DNA of 64,000 bases. It comes from Sphaerotilus montanus (GTDB lineage: Bacteria; Pseudomonadota; Gammaproteobacteria; Burkholderiales; Burkholderiaceae_C). Position numbers and translations under genes: made by a program. Shown here in pieces: positions 22,832-39,649 of the stretch (positions are counted from its first letter, which is position 1; every line of letters starts with the position of its first letter). Under the pieces are notes generated by a model. It was not told the DNA's origin. It worked only from the letters and a program-made list of their open reading frames with translations, and did not search any database. The stretch is from positions 2,914,001 through 2,978,000 of the forward strand of contig NZ_JACCFH010000001.1 in the NCBI RefSeq assembly GCF_013410775.1. Reading direction: 5' to 3'.

Positions 22832-24682
22832 TTAGCGGCTGTGCGAGCTGAGCGCGTCGAAGCGCTGGTCGTCCTGGTGCGCCAGCGCGCGGTGGATCAG
22901 CGGGCGCCGCTGCAGCGCGAGGTCACTGACCAGCGCGTCGATCATCACCGTCTGCATCAGCCGCGACACCATCGGCACCAGCGCCTGCACGTCGTCCGGG
23001 TGGTCCACCGGCAGCACGATGTCGGCCAGCCGCGCCAGCTCGCTGCGCTGCGGACAGACGGCGATCACGGCGGTGCCGGCGTGGCGGGCGCGGGCCACGG
23101 CCTCGTTGATCGAGTCGAGTTCGCCCGAGTTCGACAGCACCAGCAGCACGTCCTCGGCGCCGAGGTAGATCGAGGTCAGGTTCTGTTGCTGCGCGTCGGT
23201 GCGGGCGAGGGCGGCCAGGCCGAGCCGGCCGAGCTTGTGCTGCGCGTCCTCGGCCGCGAGGGCGGCGCTGCCGGTGCCGTAGACCTCGATGCGGCGTGCG
23301 TTCGCGAGGGCGGTCACCGCGCGCTCGAACACGTCCGGGTGCAGCCGGTCGCGCAGGCCGATCAGCGCCGAGATCGAGTTGTCGAAGATCTTGCCGATGC
23401 GCTCGGCGGTCGGGTCCTCGGCGCTGACCTCGCGGTGGGCGACCTTGGTGGTGCCCGACAGGCCCGAGCCGAGCCGCAGCTTGAAGTCCACCAGCCCCTT
23501 GAAGCCCAGCGAGCGGCAGAAGCGCATCACGGTGGGCGTGCTCACGCCGCAGCGTTCGGCGATGCGGGCGATCGAGTCGCTCATCCAGGCCCGCGGCGCC
23601 GACAGCAGGTCCTGCGCGACGATGCGCTCGGACGCCGAGAGCTTGTCCATCGAGGCCCGGATGTCCACCAGCAGCGGGCCGGCGCCGTGGTCGGCGGTGA
23701 GGTGGTCGTCCAGCATGGCCGACGCACCGCGCAGGCCGGCGCGTGGCGCCGCGACGATCCAGGTCGGCACGCGGGCCAGCCAGGGCTGGAAGCGCCCCTT
23801 GGCCTCGAAGCGGGCGCGGAAGGCCGATTGCGCGAAGAAGCCGGCGATCTGCGGCACGATGCCGCCGCCGATGTAGACGCCGCCCTGCGCGCCCAGCGTC
23901 AGCGCGAGGTTGCCGGCGGCGGTGCCCAGCATCGCGCAGAACATCGACAGCGCCTGGTGTGCGACCGGATCGGGCTCGGCCGCCAGCGCGGCGGCGGAGA
24001 TGTCCGGCGCGGCGCGGTGCGCGGGCTGGTGGCCGCTGCGCAGGGCGAGGGCCTCGTAGGTCAGCTCCAGCCCCGAGGCCGAGATCAGCCGCTCGCCCGA
24101 AACATGGCCGTAACGCGCGCGGGCATGGGCGACGACCAGGGCCTCGTCGTCGTCCTGCGCGGCGTAGCTGGCGTGCCCACCCTCGGTGGTGAGGCTGACG
24201 TTGCGGTCCTGGAACGGCACCAGCGCCGACACGCCCAGGCCCGTGCCCGGCCCGATCACGCCAACCACGGCGCCGGGCAGCGGATCCCCGCCGCCGATCT
24301 GGATGCGCTCGTGCGGATCGAGCCGGGTCAGACCCATCGCGAGCGCGGTGTAGTCGTTGATCGCCAGCAGGGTCTGCAGGCCGAACGTGCGCCGCAGGGC
24401 CTCGACCGAGAACTCCCAGGGGTGGTTGGTCAGCTTGATGCGGTCGCCCGAGATCGGGTTGGGCAGCGACAGCGCGGCGTGGCGCACGCCCGCGAGGTTC
24501 TGACTCTGAAGGAAGGTGCGGATCGCCGATTCCAGGCTGTCGTGCGCCGCGCAGGCCAGCACGGCGGTGCTGCCGAAACAGGCGGGCGCCGTCTCCAGCG
24601 CGAAGCGGATGTTGCTGGCGCCGACATCGGCCAGCAGGCGCGGTCCGTCGGGATAGGGCAGGGCGGCTGGATTCGGGCTCAT
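22832..24682 (-). CDS. glk: Bifunctional glucokinase / RpiR-family (HexR-like) transcriptional regulator
   Basis: This 616-residue fusion is of the kind known from Burkholderia-type bacteria. Residues about 15-320 are a bacterial glucokinase ([13 protein letters not shown] phosphate loop, [29 protein letters not shown]), which makes glucose 6-phosphate. Residues about 345-410 are an RpiR helix-turn-helix ([19 protein letters not shown]), and about 465-600 a SIS sugar-phosphate-binding domain ([29 protein letters not shown]). Start [10 protein letters not shown] at 24682 is preferred over an ATG at 24772 because the operator 24693-24707 would otherwise be coding. It is divergent from the alpha-glucoside operon and upstream of lacI. 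It probably represses both directions until a hexose or Entner-Doudoroff phosphate binds. Confidence 0.93.
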
Positions 24683-24692
24683 GGTGATGAAT

Positions 24693-24707
24693 GGTAATGA
24701 AATTACA
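24693..24707. promoter_or_regulatory. HexR/RpiR-type operator at the glk-rpiR start
   Basis: In minus-strand sense the site reads TGTAATTTCATTACC, close to the HexR consensus TGTAAT-nnn-ATTACA known from proteobacteria. It lies ten bases upstream of the glk-rpiR start codon, suggesting autoregulation. A second, more perfect copy is at 24866-24880. Confidence 0.65.
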
Positions 24708-24865
24708 TTGAAACTCAAGTGCCCTGCAACGCACGTTGTGCACGTTCCTGGGGCTTGTTCTGGAGAGCGCAACGGAACGCAAACGATACCGGTGCGGTCG
24801 GAAACGATTGAGTTGCCTTATTTTTAAGCACTGAATCTGAGGGTTTTCACCAGTTTTGGAGATGC

Positions 24866-24880: not shown

Positions 24881-24928
24881 TTGTTGCCTGTGGCGTGGAT
24901 TGCCACAAACAACAGGAGACAGGCCATC

Positions 24929-26197
24929 ATGTCCATCACTTACAAGCAAGTTGCCGCGGGCGTCGCCCTGGCGTTCGGCGGGCTGGTCAGCGCGCACGCT
25001 GCCACCATCACCATCTCGTGCGGCAACAACGCCGCCGACGTCGAGTTCTGCGGCAAGTTCGCCGAAGAGTGGGGCAAGAAGAACGGCCACACGGTCAAGA
25101 TGTACACCCCGCCGGCCAGCACGACCGACAACCTGGCCCTGCTGCGCCAGCAGTTCGCCGCCAAGTCGTCCGACCTCGACGTGATCATGATCGACGTGGT
25201 GTGGCCTGGCGTCATCAAGGACCACCTGGTCGACCTGAAGAAGTATTCCAAGGGCGTCGAGAAGGACCACTTCCCGGCCATCGTCGCCAACAACACCGTG
25301 GACGGCAAGCTGCTGGGCATGCCCTGGTTCACCGACGCCGGCCTGCTGTTCTACCGCAAGGACCTGCTGGCCAAGAACGGCCTGAAGGTGCCCCAGACGT
25401 GGGACGAACTGGCCGCTGCGGCCAAGAAGATCCAGGACGGCGAGCGCGCCACCGACAAGGACTTCCAGGGCTTCGTGTTCCAGGCCAAGGCGTATGAAGG
25501 CCTGACCTGCGACGCGCTGGAATGGGTCTACAGCTACGGCGGCGGCACCATCGTCGACGACAAGGGCAACATCACCATCAACAACCCGCAGGCGGCCAAG
25601 GCGCTGGACGCCGCAGCTTCCTGGATCGGCACCATCGCTCCGCAAGGCGTGATGAACTATGGCGAGGAAGACGCCCGTGGCGTGTGGCAGAACGGCAAGG
25701 CCGCGTTCATGCGCAACTGGCCGTACGCCTGGTCGCTGGGCCAGGCCGCCGACAGCCCGATCAAGGACAAGATCGGCGTCGCCGCACTGCCGGCCGGCAC
25801 TGGTCCGGGCGCCAAGAAGGCCGCCACCCTGGGTGGCTGGCAGCTGGCGGTCAACAAGTACTCCAAGAACGTGGACGCTGCCGCGTCGCTGGCGCTCTAC
25901 ATGACCAGCGCCGACATCCAGAAGAAGCGCGCCGTGGGCGGTTCGTACAACCCGACGATCCCGGCCCTGTACAAGGACGGCGACATCGCCAAGGCGAACC
26001 CGTTCATGGTCGAGCTGCTCGACGTGTTCACCAACGCGGCAGCCCGTCCGGCCACCGCCACCGGCCTGAAGTACCCGGAAGTCTCCAACGCCTTCTGGGA
26101 CGCCGCGCACGACGTGCTGGAGAAGAAGTCCACCGGCGCCGAAGCCGTCAAGAAGCTCGAAGGCAAGCTCAAGCAGATCAAGAAGGCCAAGTGGTGA
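24929..26197 (+). CDS. Alpha-glucoside ABC transporter substrate-binding protein (ThuE/AglE-like)
   Basis: This 422-residue periplasmic binding protein probably captures trehalose, maltose or sucrose. The start at 24929 has CAGGAGAC upstream; an in-frame ATG at 24881 would place the operator region next to coding sequence and lacks a ribosome site. The signal peptide ends VSAHA near residue 24, then ATITISCGNNAADVEFC. The VVWPGVIKDHLVDL and GMPWFTDAGLLFYRKDLL stretches match the trehalose/maltose-binding group. It heads the operon with two permeases, GH13 enzymes and an ATPase. The substrate range is inferred from those enzymes. Confidence 0.9.
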   Translation: MSITYKQVAAGVALAFGGLVSAHAATITISCGNNAADVEFCGKFAEEWGKKNGHTVKMYTPPASTTDNLALLRQQFAAKSSDLDVIMIDVVWPGVIKDHLVDLKKYSKGVEKDHFPAIVANNTVDGKLLGMPWFTDAGLLFYRKDLLAKNGLKVPQTWDELAAAAKKIQDGERATDKDFQGFVFQAKAYEGLTCDALEWVYSYGGGTIVDDKGNITINNPQAAKALDAAASWIGTIAPQGVMNYGEEDARGVWQNGKAAFMRNWPYAWSLGQAADSPIKDKIGVAALPAGTGPGAKKAATLGGWQLAVNKYSKNVDAAASLALYMTSADIQKKRAVGGSYNPTIPALYKDGDIAKANPFMVELLDVFTNAAARPATATGLKYPEVSNAFWDAAHDVLEKKSTGAEAVKKLEGKLKQIKKAKW

Positions 26198-26259: not shown

Positions 26260-26336
26260 AGCTTCCGACGGGGCGTCTGCCTATGGCTGCCGGCGCCCCG
26301 TTCCTGTTTCTCCGTCTGGATGCAACTGGACACCCC

Positions 26337-27251
26337 ATGAAAAACCGCACCCGCATAGCCTGGACCTTCCTGGCACCGATGCTGATCCTGATGGTGCTGG
26401 TGGCCGGCTGGCCGCTGGCGCGGTCGATCTGGTTCAGTTTCACGGACACGAACATCAACAACATCGCCGAGTACAACTACGTCGGCTTCGACAACTACTT
26501 CTCCGAGTACGGCCTGTTCGGCTTCTCGGTCTTTTCCGCCGAGTTCTGGGAAACCGACTGGGGCGTGTCGATCAAGAACACCTTCCAGTTCTCCTTCTTC
26601 TCGGTGATCCTGGAAACGCTGGCCGGCCTGGGTGTCGCCATGCTGCTGAACCAGGAGTTCAAGGGCCGCACGCTGGTGCGCACCGCCGTGCTGGTGCCCT
26701 GGGCCATCCCGACCATCGTGTCGGCCAAGATGTGGGGCTGGATCCTGCATGACCAGTTCGGGCTGATCAACCAGCTGCTGGTCGACTGGGGCCTGGTTGC
26801 CAACAAGATCGCCTTCACCGCCGACCCCGCCTATGCGCTGTGGACGGTGGTGGCCGTGGACGTGTGGAAGACCACGCCCTTCATGGCCCTGCTGATCCTG
26901 GCCGCGCTGCAGACATTGCCCAAGGACTGCTACGAGGCGGCCCGTGTCGACGGCGTGCATCCGCTGCGCCTGTTCTGGAAGGTGACGCTGCCGCTGATCA
27001 AGCACCCGCTGATGGTCGCGGTGATCTTCCGCCTGCTCGATGCACTGCGCGTGTTCGACCTGATCTTCGTGCTGACGTCCAACAGCGGCTCCACCATCAG
27101 CATGTCCGGCTTCGTGCGCCGCGACATGGTGGACAACGGCAACCTGGGCTCCGGCTCGGCGGCCTCCACCTCGCTGACGATCATCATCTTCCTGGCCGCG
27201 CTGCTCTTCATGCGCGCTGCCCGTGTCAAGCTCAACGAGGAGTCCAACTGA
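26337..27251 (+). CDS. Alpha-glucoside ABC transporter permease (MalF/ThuF-like)
   Basis: This 304-residue inner-membrane permease starts at ATG 26337 (MKNRTRIAWTFLAPM); an upstream in-frame ATG at 26283 gives an unlikely extension through the intergenic region. The first helix is WTFLAPMLILMVLVAGWPLA, and the EAA loop reads YEAARVDGVHPLRLFWKVTLPLI. A roughly 60-residue periplasmic stretch with NINNIAEYNYVGFDNYF follows helix one, as in ThuF/AglF proteins. The stop overlaps the next start (TGATG). Confidence 0.93.
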   Translation: MKNRTRIAWTFLAPMLILMVLVAGWPLARSIWFSFTDTNINNIAEYNYVGFDNYFSEYGLFGFSVFSAEFWETDWGVSIKNTFQFSFFSVILETLAGLGVAMLLNQEFKGRTLVRTAVLVPWAIPTIVSAKMWGWILHDQFGLINQLLVDWGLVANKIAFTADPAYALWTVVAVDVWKTTPFMALLILAALQTLPKDCYEAARVDGVHPLRLFWKVTLPLIKHPLMVAVIFRLLDALRVFDLIFVLTSNSGSTISMSGFVRRDMVDNGNLGSGSAASTSLTIIIFLAALLFMRAARVKLNEESN

Positions 27252-28087
27252 TGAACCAGCGTCCTCTCTGGGGCTCGGTCGTCCTGTACGCCTTCGCGGC
27301 GCTGGTCGTGATCGTCTCGGTCTACCCCTTCCTCTACACCGTCACCACCTCGCTGAAGACCGGCACCGCGCTGTTCAGCACCAGCTTGCTGCCCGACGCG
27401 CCGACGCTGAGCAACTACGTCGCGCTGTTCAACGGCAAGCAGCCCTTCGGCACCCAGCTCGGCAACTCCATCATGGTGGCCACCGTCACCGTGACGATCT
27501 CGATGCTGATGGCCATCACGGGCGCCTACGCCCTCGGCCGGATCGACTTCAAGGGCAAGAGCACGCTGCTGCTGGCGATCCTGGCCGTGTCGATGTTCCC
27601 GCAGGTGGCGGTGCTGTCGGGCATGTTCGAGCTGATGCAGGCGCTGGGGCTGTACAACCGCTCGATCGGGCTGGTGCTGCCCTACACGGTGTTCACGCTG
27701 CCCTTCACGGTGTGGATGCTGACCACCTTCATGCGCGGCCTGCCCAAGGAGCTGGAAGAGGCCGCGATCATGGACGGCTGCGGCCCGCTGCGCATCATCT
27801 TCGAGGTCTTCATGCCGCTGCTGGCGCCGGCACTGGTCTCCACCGGGCTGCTGGCCTTCATCGGCGCGTGGAACGAGTTCCTGTTCGCGCTGACCTTCAT
27901 GACCGACGACTTCCAGCGCACCGTGCCGGTCGGCATCTCGATGATCTCGGGCGCCACCGCCTACGAGATTCCCTGGGGCAGCATCATGGCCGCCTCGGTG
28001 ATCGTGACCGTGCCGCTCGTGCTCCTCGTGCTGGTGTTCCAGAAGAAGATCGTCTCCGGCCTCACGGCAGGCGCCGTCAAGGGCTGA
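27251..28087 (+). CDS. Alpha-glucoside ABC transporter permease (MalG/ThuG-like)
   Basis: This 278-residue inner-membrane partner of the preceding permease starts at 27251, overlapping its stop by one base. The first helix is VVLYAFAALVVIVSVYPFLYTV, and the EAA loop reads LEEAAIMDGCGPLRIIFEVFMPLL. The tail KKIVSGLTAGAVKG is the typical MalG-type end. The GH13 gene follows after 13 bases. Confidence 0.94.
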   Translation: MNQRPLWGSVVLYAFAALVVIVSVYPFLYTVTTSLKTGTALFSTSLLPDAPTLSNYVALFNGKQPFGTQLGNSIMVATVTVTISMLMAITGAYALGRIDFKGKSTLLLAILAVSMFPQVAVLSGMFELMQALGLYNRSIGLVLPYTVFTLPFTVWMLTTFMRGLPKELEEAAIMDGCGPLRIIFEVFMPLLAPALVSTGLLAFIGAWNEFLFALTFMTDDFQRTVPVGISMISGATAYEIPWGSIMAASVIVTVPLVLLVLVFQKKIVSGLTAGAVKG

Positions 28088-28100
28088 TGCGGTGACCACC

Positions 28101-29684
28101 ATGACGGCTCCGAACAGCAACTGGTGGCGTGGCGGGGTGATCTACCAGATCTACCCGCGCAGCTTCCAGGACAGCAACGGCGATGGCGTGGGCGACCTGC
28201 CCGGCATCACGCGCCGACTCGACCACATCGCCGCCCTCGGCGCGGACGGCATCTGGCTGTCCCCGTTCTTCAAGTCGCCGATGAAGGACTTCGGCTACGA
28301 CATCAGCGACTACTGCGATGTCGACCCGCTGTTCGGCACGCTGGCGGACTTCCGCGCGCTGGTCGACCGGGCGCACGCGCTCGGCCTGAAGGTGATGATC
28401 GACCAGGTGTATTCGCACACCGCCGACCAGCATCCGTGGTTCCAGGAGAGCCGCGCCAGCCGCGACAACCCGAAGGCCGACTGGTACGTCTGGGCCGATG
28501 CCAAGGACGACGGCAACCCGCCCAACAACTGGCTGTCGATCTTCGGCGGCTCGGCCTGGCAGTGGGACACGCGGCGGCGCCAGTACTACCTGCACAACTT
28601 CCTGACCAGCCAGCCCGACCTGAACTTCCATTGCCCGGAAGTCCAGGACGCGGTGCTGGGCTGCGTGAAGTTCTGGCTCGACTTCGGCGTCGATGGCTAC
28701 CGGCTGGACGTGGTGAACTTCTATTTCCACGACCGGCTGCTGCGCGACAACCCAGGCCGCGGCATGCCCGACGGCAGCGATCCGGCGGTCAGCCCGGTGA
28801 ATCCGTATGCCTGGCAGTGGCACCACTTCGACAAGAGCCAGCCGGAGAACCTCGTCTTCCTGCAGCGCCTGCGCGCGCTCGTGGACCAGTATCCCGACAC
28901 GACCATGGTCGGCGAGATCGGCGACGACGACGGCCTGGCCCGCGTGGCCGAGTACACCTCGGGCGGCGACAAGCTGCACATGGCCTATTGCTTCGACCTG
29001 CTCGGCGAGCCGCACAGCGCGCCGTACCTGCACGGCGTGTTCACCCGCTTCAACCAGGTGGTCGGCAGCGGCTGGCCGTGCTGGGCGATCACGAACCACG
29101 ACATTCCCCGCGTGGCGACGCGCTGGGGTGGCGCGAATCCGCCGATGGGCCTGCTGCGCGCCGCAGCGGCGCTGCAGCTCAGCCTGCGCGGCACGGCGTG
29201 CCTCTACCAGGGCGATGAACTCGGCCTGCCGGAAGCGCAGGTCGCGTTCGAGGATCTGCAGGATCCCTACGGCATCACGATGTGGCCGGACTACAAGGGC
29301 CGCGACGGTTGCCGCACCCCGATGGCGTGGGAAGCCGCGGCGCCCGACCTCGGGTTCGGCGCAGCGGGTTCGAACGTCAAGCCGTGGCTGCCGGTGTCGG
29401 AAAGCCACCGCGCGCTGGCCGCCGACCAGCAAGCCGGCGACCCGGCCTCGCTGCTGTCGCACTACCGGCAGTTGCTGGCGTGGCGGCGTGGCGTGCCAGC
29501 GCTGATCCACGGCGACATGACGCTGCTGCCGGTGCATCCGCAGGTGCTGGCCTTCGTGCGCGAACATGAAGGTCAGCGGATGCTGTGTGCCTTCAACCTC
29601 AGCGTCGCGCCGGCCGAGGTCGCGCTGGACGGGGCGGGCACGGTGCAGTTCGACCCCTGGGGCGTGCTGTTCGCTCCGACATGA
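28101..29684 (+). CDS. Alpha-glucosidase, GH13 (AglA-like, first of a tandem pair)
   Basis: This 527-residue cytoplasmic alpha-glucosidase hydrolyses terminal alpha-glucosides imported by the preceding transporter. GH13 barrel landmarks are IYQIYPRSFQDSNGDGVGDLPG, nucleophile Asp in GYRLDVVNFYFHD, acid/base Glu in MVGEIGDDDG and the third Asp in TNHDIPRVATRW. The set resembles GH13 subfamily 23 alpha-glucosidases. ATG at 28101 is chosen; a GTG at 28092 is in frame. It overlaps a close paralogue by four bases. No carbohydrate-binding or signal domain is seen. Confidence 0.92.
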   Translation: MTAPNSNWWRGGVIYQIYPRSFQDSNGDGVGDLPGITRRLDHIAALGADGIWLSPFFKSPMKDFGYDISDYCDVDPLFGTLADFRALVDRAHALGLKVMIDQVYSHTADQHPWFQESRASRDNPKADWYVWADAKDDGNPPNNWLSIFGGSAWQWDTRRRQYYLHNFLTSQPDLNFHCPEVQDAVLGCVKFWLDFGVDGYRLDVVNFYFHDRLLRDNPGRGMPDGSDPAVSPVNPYAWQWHHFDKSQPENLVFLQRLRALVDQYPDTTMVGEIGDDDGLARVAEYTSGGDKLHMAYCFDLLGEPHSAPYLHGVFTRFNQVVGSGWPCWAITNHDIPRVATRWGGANPPMGLLRAAAALQLSLRGTACLYQGDELGLPEAQVAFEDLQDPYGITMWPDYKGRDGCRTPMAWEAAAPDLGFGAAGSNVKPWLPVSESHRALAADQQAGDPASLLSHYRQLLAWRRGVPALIHGDMTLLPVHPQVLAFVREHEGQRMLCAFNLSVAPAEVALDGAGTVQFDPWGVLFAPT

Positions 29685-31336
29685 ATCCCGACATGCATTC
29701 CGCCATGAAAGCTCCCAACAACGGCTGGTGGCGCAGCGCCGTGATCTACCAGATCTACCCGCGCAGCTACCAGGACAGCAACGGCGACGGCATCGGCGAC
29801 CTGGCCGGCATCACGCGCCGCCTCGACCACATCGCCCGCCTCGGCGCCGACGCGGTCTGGTTGTCGCCGATCTTCACCTCGCCGATGAAGGACTTCGGCT
29901 ACGACGTCAGCGACTACAACGACATCGACCCGATGTTCGGCACGCTGGCGGACTTCCGGGCGCTGGTCGACCGCGCCCACGCGCTCGGCCTGAAGGTCAT
30001 CATCGACCAGGTGCTGTCGCACTCGTCGGACCAGCATCCCTGGTTCAAGGAAAGCCGCCAGAGCCGCGACAACCCGAAAGCCGACTGGTACGTCTGGGCC
30101 GACGCCAAGGACGACGGCAATCCGCCCAACAACTGGCTGAGCGTGTTCGGCGGCTCGTCCTGGCAATGGGACACGCGCCGCCGGCAGTACTACCTGCACA
30201 ACTTCCTGACCAGCCAGCCGGACCTGAACTTCCACAACCCTGCGGTGCAGGACGCGCTGCTGGCGTCGGTGCAGTTCTGGCTCGACTTCGGCGTGGACGG
30301 CTACCGGCTGGACGCGATCAACTTCTGCTTCCACGATGCCGAGCTGCGCAGCAATCCCGGCGCCGGCATGCCCGACGGCAGCAACCCGACCGTGGCCGCC
30401 AGCAACCCGTATGCGTGGCAGCACCACGTCTACGACCGCAGCCGCCCGGACGCACTGGGTTTCCTCGAACGCCTGCGCGCCCTGACTGACCAGTACCCCG
30501 ACACGATGATGGTCGGCGAGATCGGCGACGAGTCCGGCATGGCGATGGTGGCGCAGTACAGCAGCCCGTCCGCCGAGGGCGCCGAGCGGCTGCACATGGG
30601 TTACTGCTTCGACCTGCTGGCCGATCGGCACGACGCGCCGTACCTGCACGGCGTGATCGCCAAGTTCGAGCGTGTCGCGGCGGAAGCGGGCGGTGGCTGG
30701 GCCTGCTGGGCACTGTCCAACCACGACTGCAAGCGCCTCGCCACGCGCTGGGGCGGTGACCACCCCGATCCCGCCTTGCTGCGGCTGGCCCCGGCGCTGC
30801 AGCTCAGCCTGCGCGGCGCGGTCTGCCTGTACCAAGGTGAAGAACTCGGCCTGCCCGAAGCGGACATCGCCTTTGAAGATCTGCAGGATCCCTACGGCAT
30901 CACGATGTGGCCCGAGTTCAAGGGCCGCGACGGTTGCCGCACGCCGTTCCCCTGGGACTCGGCGGCGCCGGACCTCGGCTTTGGCGCGCCGGCCAGTACC
31001 ACCAAGCCCTGGCTGCCGGTGGCCGAGTCGCACCGCGCACTGGCCGTCGACGCACAGGAAGCCGACCCCGGCGCGCTGCTGCACCACTACCGCCACCTGC
31101 TGCAGTGGCGCCGCACCCAGCCGGCGCTGGTGGATGGCGACCTGACGCTGTTGCCCGTCGACGCGCAGGTGCTCGCCTTCGTGCGCACGCATGGCGACGA
31201 GCGGCTGCTGTGCGCCTTCAACCTCAGCACGGAGCCGGCGACGCTCGCGCTGCCCGCCGGGGACCAGGTCGATGCGCAGTCGACCCTGTCCTTCGACCCC
31301 TACGGCGTGCGCTTCGCGCGTCTGACCCGAGTCTGA
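29681..31336 (+). CDS. Alpha-glucosidase, GH13 (AglA-like, second of a tandem pair)
   Basis: This 551-residue paralogue of the preceding enzyme appears well above half identical by eye over the whole length. The start MNPDMHSAMKAPNN overlaps the upstream stop by four bases. Catalytic residues lie in GYRLDAINFCFHD (nucleophile), MMVGEIGDESG (acid/base) and LSNHDCKRLATRW (third Asp). Differences gather in the loops after these, for instance an eight-residue longer loop YSSPSAEGAERLHMG where the twin has YTSGGDKLHMA, so the two may split substrates. It is followed by the ATPase gene. Confidence 0.92.
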   Translation: MNPDMHSAMKAPNNGWWRSAVIYQIYPRSYQDSNGDGIGDLAGITRRLDHIARLGADAVWLSPIFTSPMKDFGYDVSDYNDIDPMFGTLADFRALVDRAHALGLKVIIDQVLSHSSDQHPWFKESRQSRDNPKADWYVWADAKDDGNPPNNWLSVFGGSSWQWDTRRRQYYLHNFLTSQPDLNFHNPAVQDALLASVQFWLDFGVDGYRLDAINFCFHDAELRSNPGAGMPDGSNPTVAASNPYAWQHHVYDRSRPDALGFLERLRALTDQYPDTMMVGEIGDESGMAMVAQYSSPSAEGAERLHMGYCFDLLADRHDAPYLHGVIAKFERVAAEAGGGWACWALSNHDCKRLATRWGGDHPDPALLRLAPALQLSLRGAVCLYQGEELGLPEADIAFEDLQDPYGITMWPEFKGRDGCRTPFPWDSAAPDLGFGAPASTTKPWLPVAESHRALAVDAQEADPGALLHHYRHLLQWRRTQPALVDGDLTLLPVDAQVLAFVRTHGDERLLCAFNLSTEPATLALPAGDQVDAQSTLSFDPYGVRFARLTRV

Positions 31337-31372: not shown

Positions 31373-32509
<1,137 letters not shown>

Positions 32510-32543
32510 TCCCCTGACTCCGCTGACCACACGCCCTTCGACC

Positions 32544-34283
32544 ATGACCGCACGCCCCGACCGCGACTGGTGGAAACAGTCCGTCGTCTACCAGATCTAC
32601 CCGCGCAGCTTCTGCGACAGCAACGGCGATGGCATCGGTGACCTGCCCGGCATCACCTCGAAGCTGGACCACCTGAAGCTGCTCGGCGTCGACGTGGTCT
32701 GGCTGTCGCCGGTCTACGCCTCGCCGCAGGACGACAACGGCTACGACATCAGCGACTACCGCGCCATCGCGCCCGAGTTCGGCACGATGGCCGAGTTCGA
32801 CGAGATGCTGGCGCAGATGCACGCGCGTGGCATCCGGTTGATGATGGACCTCGTCGTCAACCACAGCTCGGACGAACACGCCTGGTTCCAGGAGGCGCGC
32901 AAGAGCCGCGACAACCCGTACCACGGCTACTACCTCTGGCGTGACCCCAAGGCCGATGGTTCGCCGCCGACCAACTGGGAAGCGGCCTTCAACGGCTCGG
33001 TCTGGGAGTGGAACGAGGCCACCGGCGAGTACTACCTGCACATGTTCAGCCGCAAGCAGCCGGACCTGAACTGGGAGAACCCGGCGCTGCGGGCCGAGGT
33101 GTATGACGTCATGCGCTTCTGGCTCGACAAGGGTGTCGACGGCTTCCGCATGGACGTGATCAACATGGTCTCGAAGCCGTGGAACGCCGACGGCAGCCTG
33201 CCGGATGCGCCGGTCGTGCGCGGGGGCTTTCTGCAGCCCGGTTTCGCGCTGACCTGCAACGGCCCGCGTCTGCTGGAGTTCCTGCGCGAGATGCGCGAGC
33301 AGGTGCTGGACCACTACGACACCATCACCGTCGGCGAGGCACCGCTGGCCACCATCACGCAAGGCCGCGAGCTGACGAACCCCGAGACCGGCGCGCTGAA
33401 CATGCTGTTCCAGTTCGAGCACATGGACCTCGACAGCGTCGGCGGCCACGTGAACGGCAAGTGGGCGCTGAAGCCGCTGGACCTGCGCGACCTGAAGGCG
33501 ACGATGACGCGCTGGCAGGACGCCCTCTACCAGCAGGGGTGGAACAGCCTCTACCTGAACAACCATGACCAGCCGCGGCCGGTGTCGCGCTTCGGAGATG
33601 ACGGGCGCTACCGGGTCGCGTCGGCCAAGATGCTGGCGACCTTCCTGCACGGGATGCAGGGCACGCCCTACGTCTACCAGGGGGAGGAACTCGGCATGAC
33701 CAATGTCGCCTTCCCGTCGATCGACGACTACCAGGACATCGAGATCCGCAACATGTACCGCGTCGCCACCGAGGAACGCGGCATGGACCCGGCCGAGGTG
33801 ATGGCGTCCATCCACGCCAAGGGCCGCGACAACGCGCGCACGCCCATGCCGTGGGACACCAGCGCCAACGCCGGCTTCACCACCGGCACGCCCTGGCTGA
33901 AGCTGAACCCGAACTACCCGCAGATCAACGCCGCGCAGGCGGTGGCCGATCCGGCCTCGGTGTTCCAGTACTACCGGCGCCTGATCGCGATGCGCCGGGT
34001 GCACCCGGTGCTGGTGCATGGCCGCTACGCCTTGCTGGTGCCCGACCACCCGCAGCTCTACGCCTATACCCGCACGCTGTCCAAGGGTGCGGGCGAGCCG
34101 GCTGAATGCTGGCTGGTCGTCTGCAATTTCAGCGGCGACACGCCGGTCTTCGACCTGCCCGCCGATGTTCCCGCGAGCGGCTGCGACTGGATGCTCGGCA
34201 ACTACCCGCCGTGCGAGGGCGATGCGTTGCACGGTTCGCCGCTGCGACCCTGGGAGGCGCGGATGCTGCGCCTGCACGCCTGA
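32544..34283 (+). CDS. GH13 alpha-glucosidase / oligo-1,6-glucosidase-like
   Basis: This 579-residue cytoplasmic enzyme is of the oligo-1,6-glucosidase, dextran glucosidase and sucrose isomerase group (GH13_31-like). The nucleophile Asp lies in GFRMDVINMVSK, the acid/base Glu in ITVGEAPLAT and the third Asp in LNNHDQPRPVSRFG. The stretch FQFEHMDLDSVGG is typical of this group. No signal peptide is seen, and a small C-terminal beta domain follows about residue 480. It differs clearly from the tandem pair upstream. Likely substrates are isomaltose, palatinose or trehalulose; a trehalose-6-phosphate hydrolase role is less likely because uptake is by ABC transport. Confidence 0.88.
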   Translation: MTARPDRDWWKQSVVYQIYPRSFCDSNGDGIGDLPGITSKLDHLKLLGVDVVWLSPVYASPQDDNGYDISDYRAIAPEFGTMAEFDEMLAQMHARGIRLMMDLVVNHSSDEHAWFQEARKSRDNPYHGYYLWRDPKADGSPPTNWEAAFNGSVWEWNEATGEYYLHMFSRKQPDLNWENPALRAEVYDVMRFWLDKGVDGFRMDVINMVSKPWNADGSLPDAPVVRGGFLQPGFALTCNGPRLLEFLREMREQVLDHYDTITVGEAPLATITQGRELTNPETGALNMLFQFEHMDLDSVGGHVNGKWALKPLDLRDLKATMTRWQDALYQQGWNSLYLNNHDQPRPVSRFGDDGRYRVASAKMLATFLHGMQGTPYVYQGEELGMTNVAFPSIDDYQDIEIRNMYRVATEERGMDPAEVMASIHAKGRDNARTPMPWDTSANAGFTTGTPWLKLNPNYPQINAAQAVADPASVFQYYRRLIAMRRVHPVLVHGRYALLVPDHPQLYAYTRTLSKGAGEPAECWLVVCNFSGDTPVFDLPADVPASGCDWMLGNYPPCEGDALHGSPLRPWEARMLRLHA

Positions 34284-34337
34284 CCCACCACGACACGCTT
34301 GTCCCCCAACACAACGACCACTGACAAGGAGGCCGCC

Positions 34338-36290
34338 GTGGCCACCGACACGATTTCCGGCCCGCGGGTGACCGGACGCCCCGTTCCCGCCTGGGCCACG
34401 CCCGATGCCCAGCTCGGCCGCGTCTGGCAGACCCTGCACCAGGCCCTGGGCCGCGAGCCCCACTGGCCCGCCTTCGACGAACGCGTGCGCGCCCACCTGG
34501 CCACGCTGCGCAGCGAGCTGCAGCCGCTCTACGGCGCGCGCGCCGACTTCGAGGCCTTCCTCGCGCGCCTGCTGCAGACCGCCTTCGACGCCTGGCGCGA
34601 CCGTGCCCCCGACCTGAAGGCGCTCGACGCCCAGCGCGAGCACGACCCGGACTGGTTCCAGTCGCAGCGCATGCTCGGTGGCGTCTGCTACGTCGACCTG
34701 TTCGCGGGCAACTTCCGCGGCATCGAGGCGCAGATCCCGTATTTCCAGGAACTCGGCCTGACCTACCTGCACCTGATGCCGCCCTTCCTGTGCCCCGAGC
34801 CGCACAGCGACGGCGGCTACGCGGTCAGCAGCTACCGGGCGACCAAGCCCTCGCTGGGCAGCATCGACGAGCTGCGCCATCTGTCGGAGAAGCTGCGCGA
34901 GGCCGGCATCTCGCTGGTGCTGGACTTCGTGTTCAACCACACCTCGGACGAACACGACTGGGCGGTCGGCGCGCGGGCGAACGACCCGGCGTACCAGGAC
35001 TATTTCTACCTCTTCCCGGACCGCACCCAGCCCGACGCCTACGAGCGCACGGTGCGCGAGATCTTCCCCGACGAGCACCCGGGCGCCTTCTCGCAGCTCG
35101 ACGACGGCCGCTGGGTCTGGACCACGTTCCACAGCTACCAGTGGGATCTGAACTACAGCAACCCCGAAGTCTTCCGCGCGATGGCCGGCGAGATGCTGTT
35201 CATCGCCAACCTGGGCGTCGAGTTCCTGCGCATGGACGCGGTGGCCTTCATCTGGAAGCGCCTGGGCACCTCCTGCGAGAACCTGCCCGAGGCGCACCAC
35301 CTGCTGCGCGCCTACAACGCGCTTGCCCGCATCGCCGCGCCCGCGCTGCTGTTCAAGTCGGAGGCCATCGTCCACCCGGATGATGTCGTGGCCTACATCT
35401 CGCCCGCCGAGTGCCAGATCTCGTACAACCCGCTGCAGATGGCGCTGCTGTGGAACACGCTGGCGACCCGGCAGGTGGACATGCTGCAGAAAGCCTTGGC
35501 CGAGCGCCACCACATCGCCCCCGGCACCGCCTGGGTCAACTACGTGCGCAGCCACGACGACATCGGCTGGACCTTCGCCGACGAGGACGCGCTGCAGCTC
35601 GGCATCAACGGCTTCGACCACCGCCAGTTCCTCAACCGCTTCTACGTCAACCGCTTCCCCGGCAGCTTCGCGCGCGGCGTGCCCTTCCAGGACAACCCGG
35701 CCACCGGCGATTGCCGCATCTCGGGCACGGCCGCCTCGCTGTGCGGGCTGGAGCAGGGCGATGCACACGCGGTGGCGCGCATGCTGCTGCTGTACGGCGT
35801 GGCGCTGTCCTCGGGCGGCATTCCGCTGATCTACCTCGGTGACGAAGTCGGCACGCTCGACGACCACGGCTACGTCAACGATCCCGGCAAGGCGGGCGAC
35901 AGCCGCTGGGTGCACCGCCCGGCCCGCGACGAGCAGCGTTACGCCGACCGGCGCGACCCGAGCACCGACGCTGGCCGTCTCCACGCCGGACTGCGCCACC
36001 TGATCGCGCTGCGTCGGCACCTGCCAGCCCTCGCCGGCGGGCATCTGGTGCCGTTCTATACCAAGAACCCGTCGGTGCTGGGCTACCTGCGCGATGGTGC
36101 GCAGGGCGGAGCCGGCCATGTGCTGGTGCTCGGCAACTTCAGCGAACACCCGCAGACCATCGCTGCCGAGGTCTTCTCGGCCATGCCGGCGCGCATGGTG
36201 GACCTGATCGGCCAGTCGGCGTTCGAGGCCCGTTCGCCTGTCACGCTGGCGCCGTACCAGATGGTGTGGCTGGTGCCGCGCGGCATGTGA
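34338..36290 (+). CDS. Amylosucrase (or sucrose hydrolase), GH13 subfamily 4
   Basis: This 650-residue enzyme splits sucrose and, in true amylosucrases, transfers the glucose to an alpha-1,4-glucan primer. GTG at 34338 is chosen as start because AAGGAGG lies six bases upstream; a TTG further out has none. The helical N-domain is followed by the hallmark [17 protein letters not shown]. Catalytic acids are D300 in LRMDAVAF, E342 in FKSEAIVHP and D407 in VRSHDDIGW. The C-terminus is the usual GH13 beta domain. No signal peptide is seen, so it acts on imported sucrose. Close relatives include hydrolysing enzymes from Xanthomonas, and sequence inspection alone cannot decide between synthesis and hydrolysis. 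Confidence 0.9.
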
Positions 36291-36320
36291 CTTGCTAAAG
36301 TGAAGTGAACTGACCGTCCG

Positions 36321-36348
36321 GGTGGATCCCCGCCTGCGCGGGGATGAC
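36321..36348. repeat. REP-like half element forming the leader of the next gene
   Basis: ATCCCCGC (36326-36333) pairs with GCGGGGAT (36338-36345) over loop CTGC, followed by GACGG. It matches the solitary half at 820-849 and the right arm of the pair at 2681-2757. An ATG at 36344 lies on the 3' edge of the stem, and the likely true start at 36356 is only eight bases after the element. Confidence 0.7.
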
Positions 36349-36355
36349 GGACCAC

Positions 36356-39300
36356 ATGAGCACACACGCAGATTCCACCACCGCACCGCGCCTGGAGGCC
36401 CTCCAGGCCCTCACGCAGCAGGCGCGCACCATCATCCTGTCCCGGCAGGATCCGACCACCGGCCTGCTGCCCGCCAGCACCGCCATCACGGTCCACGGCG
36501 ATTACACCCACGCCTGGGTGCGCGACAACGTCTACAGCATCCTGGCGGTCTGGGCGCTGGGCCGCGTCTGGCGCACGGACGATCCGGCCCAGGCGGACGA
36601 TCTGGACGCGGCGACCACCCGCCTGATGCGCGGCCTGCTGGCGGCGATGATGCGGCAGGCGCACAAGGTCGAGCGCTTCAAGCGCACCCAGCACCCGCAC
36701 GACGCGCTGCACGCCAAGTACTCGACCCAGTCCGGCGAGCCGGTGGTCGGCGACACCGAATGGGGCCACCTGCAGATCGACGCGACCGCGATCTTCCTGC
36801 TGATGCTTGCGCAGATGAGCGCGGGCGGCCTGTCGATCGTGCGCGACCGCGACGAGCTGAACTTCGTGCAGAACCTGGTCTGGTACCTGGCCCACGCCTG
36901 GCGCACGCCCGACTACGGCATCTGGGAGCGCGGCCACAAGCGCAACGACGGCCAGGCCGAGGTCAACGCCAGCTCGGTCGGCATGGCCAAGGCGGCGCTG
37001 GAGGTGGTCAACGGCGCGCAGCTGCTGCCCGGTGCCGACAGCCCGCGCATCCACGTGCCGGCCGACGCCATCGCGCAGGCCCGCCACACGCTGGAGAGCC
37101 TGCTGCCGCGCGAATCCGAGTCCAAGGAGACGGACGCGGCACTGCTGTCGATCATCGGCTTCCCGGCGTTCGCGGTGGGCGATGCCACGCTGGTCGAGCG
37201 CACCCGGGCCGAGATCGTCGGCAAGCTGCAGGGGCGCTACGGCTGCAAGCGCTTCCTGCGTGATGGCCACCAGACGGTGACCGAGGACCACAGCCGCCTG
37301 CACTACGAGCCGGGCGAGCTGGAGCGCTTCGCGCACATCGAGTCCGAGTGGCCGCTGTTCTTCTGCTACCTGCTGCTGGACGCTGCCCTGCGCGGCGATC
37401 AGACGGCGGCGCGCGACTACCGTCTGCGGCTGGAGGCGCTGATGGTCGAGCAGGACGGCGTGCGCCTGCTGCCCGAGCTGTACGTCGTGCCGGCCGAACT
37501 GGTGGACGCCGAGCGCCTGGAGCCCCGCAGCCAGCGCCGCGAACCCAACGACAACGTGCCGCTGGTGTGGGCGCAGAGCCTCTACCTCGTCGGCGTGCTG
37601 GTGCACGACCGCCATGTGACGGCGCGCGAGTTGCTGCCGCGCGGGCGCGGTCCGAGTGACGCCGCCTCCAAGGCCATGATCGAGGCGGCACGCGAACAGG
37701 TGCGGGTACAGGTGGCCGTGCTGGGTGCGGACCGGCTGGTGCAGGCCCGGCTGGCCTCGCACGGCATCGCCTGCGAGACGCCCGAGCAGGTCCAGCCGCT
37801 GCAGGTGCGCTATGCCGACGATCTGGCGCTGGCGCTGGCCGAGCTGGGTCGGGTGGATCGCCTGGGCTTGACGGGCCGGCCGGTCGAGCGGCTGGACAGC
37901 CTCGTCACCAGCCAGGTGTTCACGCTACCGTCCGCCGCGGGCAGCCAGGCGCAGACGATCGTCTTCCTGCCGGCCTTCTACAGCCGCCAGGGCTTCTACC
38001 TGACGCTGGACAACCGGCTGCTGGTGGACGAGATCCGCGCCGAGATCGCCGCGCTGCGCCGCCACTGGCAGGTGCGCGACCAGCAGGGCCAGCCGCTGCT
38101 GCTGCTGCTGATCGGCGAGGCCATGCTCGGGGCCAACAGCGCCGAGGTGCTGCTGAATTTCCTGAAGGAACTCGGGCGTGATGACACGGCCGGGGTCGAG
38201 GTCGGGCCACTGGCCTCGCTGCTGCCGCGGGCCCGCACCACGCGCATGGACTGGCTCGACGCCGCCCCTTGGGCCGCCACGGCCGAGCTGCCGGCCACCG
38301 CGGACACCCGCCTGCCGCCGGATCTGCGCTGGGAGGAGGGCGCGACCCGGCCGCTGACCCCCGCCCGGGCGGCGGCGCTGGAGCACGAGGCCGATCCCCA
38401 GGTGCTGCTGCACCGGCTGGACCGCAGCCGCAATCCGTACGAGCAGATCGAGATCCTCGGCCTGCTGGTGCGGCGGGGTGGCGCGCAGTGGGGCACCGAC
38501 CGGGGTTGCTCGGTCGGACAGATGGTGCTGGACTTCCATGCCCGCGCCTGCCATGGCCGCAAATGGGGGCTGATCCGCCGTTCGGCCGGCGTGCTGGGGC
38601 TGCACGACGATGCGCTCGAAGAGGCGGTGGCCCAGATCGTCGTGCGCCAGAAGCGGGTGGCGGTCGGCCGGGCCTATGGTGAAGGCGCGGTGATCGGCCG
38701 GCCGATGGGCAGCGCCGAGATCCACGAGCGCATCTGCCGCTACGGCGGCGACGACCCGCGGGCGCGGGTGCTGCTGCAGGAGATCGTGCTGCTGCTGGGC
38801 ATGCTGATCAAGGCGGATGCGGCGCTGTTCAAGGGCACGCTGACGCTGCGCGCGTGGTACCTGATCCTGCTCATCACCGGCTGGCTGGCCCGCGAACACG
38901 CGCTGACGCAGGCCGAGGCGTTCGACTTCCTGCTCAGCCTGAGCCCGCACGCCATCCTGACCCGCCTGCGCGAGGTCATCGCGCACGAGCAGGACATGAA
39001 CCGCAACCTGCTGCGCCTGCAGTCGCTGCACGGCCGCATCAGCCGGGACGGCAGCGGCAGCGCGGCGGGACTGGCGACGGTGCATTTCCCGGCCTCGGCC
39101 GATCCGGTGCTTGACCAGAGCGTCGGCGGCTGGCTGGCGTGGCGGGAAGTGCAGGGCGTCATCACCCGGCTGCCGGAGGATTTCTACACCCGCGTCTGGC
39201 AGGTGCTGCGGCATTTCCCGGGCCTCGTCATCGGCGACCAGCTCGACAGCCGCAACCGCGTCGACAGCCGCGTGGCGCGCGCCGACATGACGCCGTCGGA

Positions 39301-39649
39301 GCGGGGCTTTGCGCTGCAGGTCGAGGATCTGCTCAACAAGATCCAGGCGCCCGAGTACCGCCAGCTCACGATCGAGGCGCTGGTGGCGGTCTCCGACATC
39401 TGCCGGGCGAATCCGCAGTTGCAGGGCGAGGGGCTGCTGGTGATGGACGTGCTGGTGGGCGTGGCGGTCCGGCTGGGCTGGGAGCAGTCCTTGCCCGCGC
39501 GCGAGGCGGATGAGCCGGCGCCGGACTACAACGAGCACCGTGGCACGGCGTGGTCGGCGTTCTATGCGAGCCCGCCGCATGCGGTGGCCCAGTGCGTGAT
39601 GGCGGCGCTGGCCTTCCTGATGACGCCGGAGCCGGTCGAGGTGGAGTGA
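36356..39649 (+). CDS. Phosphorylase kinase alpha/beta-like protein with GH15 glucoamylase-type domain
   Basis: This 1097-residue cytoplasmic protein without signal peptide is strikingly like the regulatory alpha and beta subunits of eukaryotic phosphorylase kinase. The N-terminal (alpha/alpha)6 domain holds HAWVRDNVYSILAVWALG (residues about 52-70), AKYSTQSGEPVVGDTEWGHLQIDAT, GIWERG (about 188-193, the place of the GH15 catalytic acid), NASSVGMAKAALE and KLQGRYGCKRFLRDG. The far C-terminal part FYTRVWQVLRHFPG and APEYRQLTIEALVAV also matches those subunits, so the similarity spans the protein. The start at 36356 avoids an ATG inside the repeat at 36321-36348. It follows amylosucrase by 65 bases. 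A role in alpha-glucan turnover, enzymatic or regulatory, is likely but unproven. Confidence 0.85.
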   Translation: MSTHADSTTAPRLEALQALTQQARTIILSRQDPTTGLLPASTAITVHGDYTHAWVRDNVYSILAVWALGRVWRTDDPAQADDLDAATTRLMRGLLAAMMRQAHKVERFKRTQHPHDALHAKYSTQSGEPVVGDTEWGHLQIDATAIFLLMLAQMSAGGLSIVRDRDELNFVQNLVWYLAHAWRTPDYGIWERGHKRNDGQAEVNASSVGMAKAALEVVNGAQLLPGADSPRIHVPADAIAQARHTLESLLPRESESKETDAALLSIIGFPAFAVGDATLVERTRAEIVGKLQGRYGCKRFLRDGHQTVTEDHSRLHYEPGELERFAHIESEWPLFFCYLLLDAALRGDQTAARDYRLRLEALMVEQDGVRLLPELYVVPAELVDAERLEPRSQRREPNDNVPLVWAQSLYLVGVLVHDRHVTARELLPRGRGPSDAASKAMIEAAREQVRVQVAVLGADRLVQARLASHGIACETPEQVQPLQVRYADDLALALAELGRVDRLGLTGRPVERLDSLVTSQVFTLPSAAGSQAQTIVFLPAFYSRQGFYLTLDNRLLVDEIRAEIAALRRHWQVRDQQGQPLLLLLIGEAMLGANSAEVLLNFLKELGRDDTAGVEVGPLASLLPRARTTRMDWLDAAPWAATAELPATADTRLPPDLRWEEGATRPLTPARAAALEHEADPQVLLHRLDRSRNPYEQIEILGLLVRRGGAQWGTDRGCSVGQMVLDFHARACHGRKWGLIRRSAGVLGLHDDALEEAVAQIVVRQKRVAVGRAYGEGAVIGRPMGSAEIHERICRYGGDDPRARVLLQEIVLLLGMLIKADAALFKGTLTLRAWYLILLITGWLAREHALTQAEAFDFLLSLSPHAILTRLREVIAHEQDMNRNLLRLQSLHGRISRDGSGSAAGLATVHFPASADPVLDQSVGGWLAWREVQGVITRLPEDFYTRVWQVLRHFPGLVIGDQLDSRNRVDSRVARADMTPSERGFALQVEDLLNKIQAPEYRQLTIEALVAVSDICRANPQLQGEGLLVMDVLVGVAVRLGWEQSLPAREADEPAPDYNEHRGTAWSAFYASPPHAVAQCVMAALAFLMTPEPVEVE

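Follow-up and report, generated by a model that had tools for sequence, protein, structure and literature searches.

A full-length bacterial homologue of the phosphorylase kinase α and β subunits with both GH15-type catalytic glutamates

The closest described relatives of the protein reported here are the α and β subunits of animal phosphorylase kinase (PhK), represented in the human enzyme by PHKA1 and PHKB. According to the consulted sections of a 2024 cryo-EM study of human PhK (PMC10978961), to which all statements from this source below are limited, Glu185 and Glu371 of PHKA1 are the two catalytic glutamates of a glucoamylase-type site that is seemingly complete and whose significance still needs investigation, and the β subunit lacks some of the catalytic residues. 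Here, we describe a bacterial protein of the same kind encoded in a 64 000-nucleotide stretch of the Sphaerotilus montanus genome (positions 2914001-2978000 of contig NZ_JACCFH010000001.1; the whole stretch is referred to as the window). The + strand open reading frame (ORF) 36344..39649 has 1101 residues, or 1097 if translation starts at ATG 36356, and contains all six peptides from which the initial annotation had proposed a relationship to PhK extending past a domain of glycoside hydrolase family 15 (GH15). The gene and its parts are as follows.

36356..39649, + strand: PhK α/β-like protein, 1097 residues (Pfam, phmmer and Foldseek; an in-frame ATG also at 36344)
36356..37645, + strand: residues 1-430, GH15-like domain (D1 of PhK), approximate borders (PF00723; residues 9-415 versus PHKA1, E = 1e-127; 125/430 invariant)
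36926..36928, + strand: codon of E191 in the motif GIWERG, equivalent of human PHKA1 Glu185 (Glu in 96/96 rows)
37475..37477, + strand: codon of E374 in the motif LLPELY, equivalent of human PHKA1 Glu371 (Glu in 96/96 rows; Lys in human PHKB)
37646..38275, + strand: residues 431-640, D2-like region, approximate borders (PHKA1 alignment to its residue 624; 5/210 invariant)
38276..39646, + strand: residues 641-1097, match to the C-terminal part of PHKA1 and PHKB, with KPBB_C at 846-1092

The chain of about 1100 residues carries a GH15-like domain followed by KPBB_C, with Pfam scores of 238.9 bits for Glyco_hydro_15 (PF00723) and 273.3 bits for KPBB_C (PF19292). In the Protein Data Bank (PDB), human PHKA1 (8.4e-180, three stretches) and PHKB (1.6e-149, two stretches) are the sole phmmer matches with E ≤ 0.1, and a 20-row profile of the family returns the same two proteins at E ≤ 0.01, with 1062 and 891 bits, respectively. 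Searched alone against solved structures, residues 641-1097 retrieve PHKA1 (9.5e-30) and PHKB (9.7e-26) and nothing else at E ≤ 1, while residues 9-415 retrieve PHKA1 (1e-127), PHKB (5.3e-95) and a chance-level match to yjbJ (E = 1), with no solved glucoamylase at E ≤ 10. A similarity to generic GH15 enzymes only, with a C-terminal half unrelated to PhK, was therefore rejected, and the full-length relationship initially annotated holds in the phmmer, C-terminal-only, 20-row profile and Foldseek searches alike. By sequence homology, the predicted protein is a member of the PhK α/β family, far beyond chance; the sequence family itself is already in Pfam.

A model of the protein was calculated with AlphaFold2 from an alignment of 27 of 28 rows chosen at <85% identity (L025, which runs to its contig end, was left out). 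The model has a mean predicted local distance difference test score (pLDDT) of 75.4 and a predicted template-modeling (pTM) score of 0.76. The eight best Foldseek matches in the PDB are all PhK α or β chains, aligned over 1111-1162 columns with template-modeling (TM) scores of 0.61-0.65 on the query and 0.66-0.69 on the target, and the ninth is a PhK γδ entry; the predicted structure thus agrees with the sequence result over the full length. The whole-chain root-mean-square deviation from the PhK chains is ∼14 Å, which we read as domains placed differently relative to each other in the model.

The initial annotation had asked whether the GIWERG glutamate and a second acid occupy the GH15 catalytic sites, and both are present: E191 and E374 are kept in 96/96 full-length rows of the family alignment. 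These rows comprise 94 distinct proteins, since L080 repeats the window gene and L104 is identical to L066, both duplicates being counted. The counts do not include L077 (whose matching region is interrupted by a stop after two codons), the cut loci L081-L089 (of which L082 is the window itself and the genes of the others were refetched) or L106-L108 (other genes); both catalytic motifs are present in L077 as well. PHKA1 and the 18 bacterial rows compared also retain Trp54 and Arg56 (W54 and R56), and human PHKB has Lys, Gln and Lys at the positions of W54, R56 and E374. A 20-row alignment contains 147 invariant columns, of which 125 fall in residues 1-430, five in 431-640 and 17 in 641-1097. 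Selection on the sequence is thus strongest on the GH15-like domain, and the C-terminal part is far less constrained (17/457 invariant versus 125/430).

The predicted protein lacks the features of the animal kinase subunit for which it was tested. In PHKA1, Lys588 and Tyr593 are γ-docking residues, Lys588 pairing with the kinase subunit (PMC10978961). The Lys588 position is Glu in 77/96 rows, and Tyr occurs in 0/96 rows at the Tyr593 position, which lies in a gappy stretch of the alignment and is a gap in the window protein. A CaaX farnesylation motif is likewise absent, with Cys at position −4 in 0/96 rows and a C-terminus of EPVEVE in the window protein. Two PHKA1 linkers (624-760 and 965-1029) are shortened by about 97 and 39 residues in their counterparts (639-678 and 878-903). 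The window contains neither a Pkinase match nor a glycogen phosphorylase, in keeping with the initial annotation, which had found no kinase γ subunit or obvious glycogen phosphorylase nearby: the ten Pkinase matches of the genome (nine over cut-off) and its single GlgP match all lie outside 2914001-2978000.

ATG 36356 is the likelier start by sequence, since ATG 36344 falls within a palindromic repeat (36327-36349) and L006, which comes from a Sphaerotilus bin and at 92% identity is the nearest among the relatives kept, aligns from the methionine at 36356. The repeat, TCCCCGCCTGCGCGGGGATGACG, lies just 5′ of the gene, is the source of the in-frame ATG 36344 and occurs in three copies with ≤3 mismatches in the window (36327-36349, 2680-2702 on the − strand and 826-848; 0 in shuffles). 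When a 26-base pattern of it was compared with 107 other loci, none matched exactly, the sole match being L080, the window itself. Judged by the ratio of nonsynonymous to synonymous substitution rates (dN/dS), which is 0.10-0.13 against the two nearest relatives and 0.36-0.59 against four others, the gene is under purifying selection.

The PhK-like gene is the last of a same-strand cluster comprising an ATP-binding cassette (ABC) α-glucoside importer, three genes of glycoside hydrolase family 13 (GH13) and an amylosucrase. A predicted fusion gene is divergent from this sugar cluster. The neighbors, in order toward the PhK-like gene, are as follows.

22832..24772, − strand: fusion of glucokinase, RpiR-type helix-turn-helix and SIS domains, divergent from the sugar cluster (PF02685, PF01418, PF01380)
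24881..26197, + strand: ABC solute-binding protein (PF01547)
26283..27251, + strand: ABC sugar permease (PF00528)
27248..28087, + strand: ABC sugar permease (PF00528)
28092..29684, + strand: GH13 α-glucosidase (α-glucosidase 3wy1, E = 1.2e-219)
29681..31336, + strand: GH13 α-glucosidase-like enzyme (PF00128, 392.8 bits)
31373..32509, + strand: ABC ATPase, MalK/UgpC type (Pfam and NCBIfam)
32397..34283, + strand: GH13 enzyme of α-glucosidase or phosphotrehalase type, ORF from first possible start (PF00128, 562 bits)
34299..36290, + strand: amylosucrase directly upstream of the PhK-like gene, ORF from first possible start (3ueq and 1g5a, E = 3.6e-264)

The amylosucrase was already named as the neighbor in the initial annotation, and its match to solved amylosucrases confirms this. 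In NCBIfam, the GH13 gene at 32397..34283 scores over the cut-off of the α,α-phosphotrehalase subfamily PRK10933 (619.9 versus 535) and under that of the equivalog TIGR02403 (652.8 versus 799). The glucokinase-RpiR-SIS fusion is probably both the regulator of the cluster and its glucose kinase, with enzyme and regulator on one chain. An open frame of 1320 residues on the − strand (32424-36386), antisense to the GH13 and amylosucrase genes, is in all likelihood a shadow frame arising from coding DNA of high GC content.

An amylosucrase or another GH13 enzyme adjoins the PhK-like gene in 8/8 fetched loci of the Sphaerotilus group; one congener (L097) has GH13, amylosucrase, glgB and the PhK-like gene in this order. 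Other proteobacterial loci show a second kind of arrangement, with rpiR, glgB, glgX, GH77 (glycoside hydrolase family 77) and the PhK-like gene tightly packed on one strand in L092, and the PhK-like gene followed by glgB and glgX in L094 and L095 (in L095, glgB and glgX are named by tblastn only). Amylosucrase and branching enzyme together form a known route from sucrose to glycogen, as described in the consulted part of a 2024 review of prokaryotic α-glucan enzymes (PMC11046441). In cyanobacterial loci, the neighbor family seen most often, in 32 loci and usually on the opposite strand, is that of an MgtE-type Mg transporter (named from one member), which gives no hint of function. The GlgP and GlgB_N matches of the S. 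montanus genome lie ≤10 kb apart and about 1.4 Mb from the PhK-like gene. Two adjacent GlgB_N matches were observed inside one 760-residue open frame (genome G000, C1:4340363-4340977), and the second match, the weaker of the two, may correspond to the related module of carbohydrate-binding module family 48 (CBM48) of an ordinary branching enzyme.

KPBB_C was found in 11/60 near relatives (the window's own genome counted), all of the same genus and amounting to 11/13 genomes of that genus; G011 and G012 are the two without a match. In wider sets it occurs in 8/397 Pseudomonadota (the window's genome again counted), in 73/291 Cyanobacteriota at E ≤ 0.001 (72 over cut-off) and in 1/14 control genomes, that of Synechococcus elongatus; phyla beyond Pseudomonadota and Cyanobacteriota were covered through the 14 control genomes. 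A genome scan yielded 177 relatives, 80 of which were kept; the 79 loci kept comprise 72 cyanobacterial ones, at 46-50% identity, and seven that belong to the Sphaerotilus/Leptothrix group or to an unplaced Pseudomonadota bin. Identity of bacterial members to the window protein extends down to 36%. Among the 291 cyanobacterial genomes, G640 alone shows two KPBB_C matches; it has two diverged PhK-like copies (L098 and L099) that stand apart in the tree. The patchy spread in Pseudomonadota suggests horizontal gain in this phylum. A mobile or plasmid-borne gene was rejected for the sets searched: at the sensitivity of the searches, tblastn against 72 556 records of plasmids and 50 697 of phages gave no match, and 17 pattern matches in IMG/VR included no relative.

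The preferred reading, to which we assign a probability of about 0.5, is that the protein acts in the cytoplasm on the non-reducing ends of α-1,4-glucans by a GH15-type mechanism. It would be a stand-alone member of the PhK α/β family with no kinase gene beside it, probably cytoplasmic as judged by eye from its N-terminus. Its N-terminal domain, a predicted GH15-type (α/α) barrel with both catalytic acids, would at least bind the glucan ends and, on this reading, cleave off or transfer single glucose units, and the D2-D5 part may serve assembly or control. Likely substrates are the glucan that amylosucrase would make from sucrose, with branches added by GlgB, or maltodextrin taken up through the ABC importer; the glucokinase encoded in this cluster could then act on the glucose set free. 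Animals use such a protein as a kinase scaffold, with the active-site residues kept in α and some of them lost in β.

Several observations weigh against an enzymatic role of this kind. Glucoamylase activity of the human PhK holoenzyme and of its αγδ complex was undetectable on maltose, isomaltose and glycogen (PMC10978961); as the human enzyme showed no activity although α keeps both glutamates, the retained pair is no proof of catalysis. In the Foldseek search the best ordinary GH15 glucoamylase, 2vn4, is a weak match at rank 11 (E = 8.4e-3, probability 1.00, query TM score 0.20), below an unrelated huntingtin chain. The pLDDT falls below 50 at residues 42-53, 186-201 (which contain E191) and 294-330, so the model is weak around the active site and a poor guide to its geometry. 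In terms of gene context, the flanks of L090, L091, L093 and L096 match none of seven α-glucan query enzymes (GlgA and GlgC were not among the queries), and only 2/79 cyanobacterial loci (78 distinct) match any of the seven, some of the flanks being short.

The main rival is a non-catalytic glucan sensor or scaffold, in which glucan ends would be bound in the GH15-like pocket and the helical C-terminal part would keep other enzymes of the pathway (GlgB, amylosucrase, GlgP) attached to the particle, much as PhK does with its kinase. The inactivity of human PhK speaks for it, as do the gene runs shared with glgB and glgX and the retention across bacteria of a large C-terminal part of no known function; the authors of the human study, moreover, consider acarbose binding by these domains likely (PMC10978961). 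Both catalytic glutamates in 94 distinct bacterial proteins are seemingly more than binding needs, however, and the C-terminal part is the much less constrained one; we regard this explanation as less likely than the preferred reading. GH15 also includes trehalases and dextran-active enzymes, so an exo-acting enzyme on another sugar (trehalose, a dextran-type α-1,6-glucan or a small α-glucoside) in place of a storage glucan was considered. A match to the archaeal GH15 trehalase family of NCBIfam (18.1 bits against a cut-off of 820) is weak, and the cluster does hold a sugar importer and the GH13 gene that passes the phosphotrehalase subfamily cut-off, but two separate gene arrangements (that of L097 and that of L092, L094 and L095) join the PhK-like gene with glgB, and this assignment seems improbable. 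A bacterial phosphorylase-kinase-like complex, in which the protein anchors one of the Ser/Thr kinases of the genome and regulates its glycogen phosphorylase, is very improbable: kinases and one GlgP are encoded in the genome, but the window has no Pkinase match, the two γ-docking residues tested are not conserved, CaaX is missing, and the first 70 residues of the GlgP frame, inspected by eye, contain no site like RKQISVR.

Over D1-D2, the cyanobacterial protein L010 is 56.1% identical to PHKA1 and 47.7% to PHKB, and PHKA1 and PHKB are 42.7% identical to each other. A tree was calculated from 37 of the 96 rows and the two human proteins, which were the only eukaryotic sequences; no outgroup was used. 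Human α and β group together (99/100) and are placed, weakly supported, within cyanobacterial rows (82/92); the clade that holds the window protein (100/100) has a second proteobacterial group as its neighbor (88/94). Where the human pair branches is unstable and shifts when either is left out: without PHKB, PHKA1 joins a 24-row, mostly cyanobacterial set with a Shimodaira-Hasegawa-like approximate likelihood-ratio test (SH-aLRT) value of 76, and without PHKA1, PHKB stands among cyanobacterial rows, with 0 at the innermost fork and 92 for the surrounding four-row and 13-row sets. In the approximately unbiased (AU) test, 21 cyanobacterial rows as one side of the tree are not rejected (p = 0.107), and 20 rows without L101, a group picked after seeing the tree, are rejected (p = 0.017). 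Long branches meet in this tree, and the bootstrap had not quite settled (0.988). A bacterial origin of the eukaryotic PhK α and β subunits is plausible. More specifically, and tentatively, the animal subunits may derive from a bacterial enzyme of the cyanobacterial type that acted on glycogen and possessed the full D1-D5 architecture before any association with a kinase, as suggested by an L010-PHKA1 identity that exceeds that between PHKA1 and PHKB, by the diversity of the bacterial members and by the weakly supported position of the human clade. The bacterial proteins would then be the surviving enzymatic form, and the glucoamylase-like domain of PhK the remnant of it, retained as a glucan sensor. 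A conserved α/β dimer helix as a sign of a bacterial homodimer was dropped, since PHKA1 68-94 is no better conserved than the sequence around it (among 27-residue stretches, 63% show equal or higher similarity).

Among the matches listed in an open-access literature search, no paper addressed a bacterial PhK α/β homologue, judged by title and the start of the abstract, and the words "phosphorylase kinase" are absent from the first 300 000 of the 445 374 characters of the review cited above (PMC11046441). What is new is that the full-length architecture occurs in a kinase-free form, which retains both catalytic acids and lacks the γ-docking and CaaX features, and that in proteobacteria the gene is repeatedly associated with glgB/glgX or amylosucrase. 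A single-chain bacterial relative, which in some genomes stands among glycogen genes, could be expressed and assayed without the 1.3-MDa complex, and the window gene can be used to ask what the GH15-like domain of PhK does. If active, the bacterial protein would reveal which activity is ancestral or has been lost and what the human domain is likely to bind, a matter of relevance to glycogen storage disease type IX. Glycogen metabolism in bacteria, cyanobacteria included, would also gain an enzyme.

Compared with known systems, the window protein is closest in kind to the PhK subunits. It shares with human PHKA1 (PDB 8jfk, 8jfl and 8z5m) homology along the whole chain, both catalytic glutamates and the WVRD motif, and is 45.8% identical over 578 aligned positions of D1-D2; it differs in having no CaaX motif, no conserved Lys588 and Tyr593, two shorter linkers and no kinase match in the window. 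Homology also extends along the chain of PHKB, with 37.3% identity over D1-D2, although PHKB has lost the second glutamate, W54 and R56. GH15 glucoamylases are not known to have the D2-D5 part. The window protein resembles them (for example, Hypocrea jecorina 2vn4) weakly in fold, as detected by Foldseek, and in the catalytic glutamate pair, as recognized through the comparison with PHKA1 (PMC10978961), but residues 9-415 give no sequence match to them at E ≤ 10. The cyanobacterial proteins with GH15 and KPBB_C domains (for example, L010 from Anabaena subtropica and L008), no characterization of which turned up in the literature listed, differ in genomic setting, with no match to the seven α-glucan query enzymes adjoining the gene in 77/79 loci, and correspond to the window protein over nearly their full length, at 46-50% identity and with the same two catalytic glutamates.

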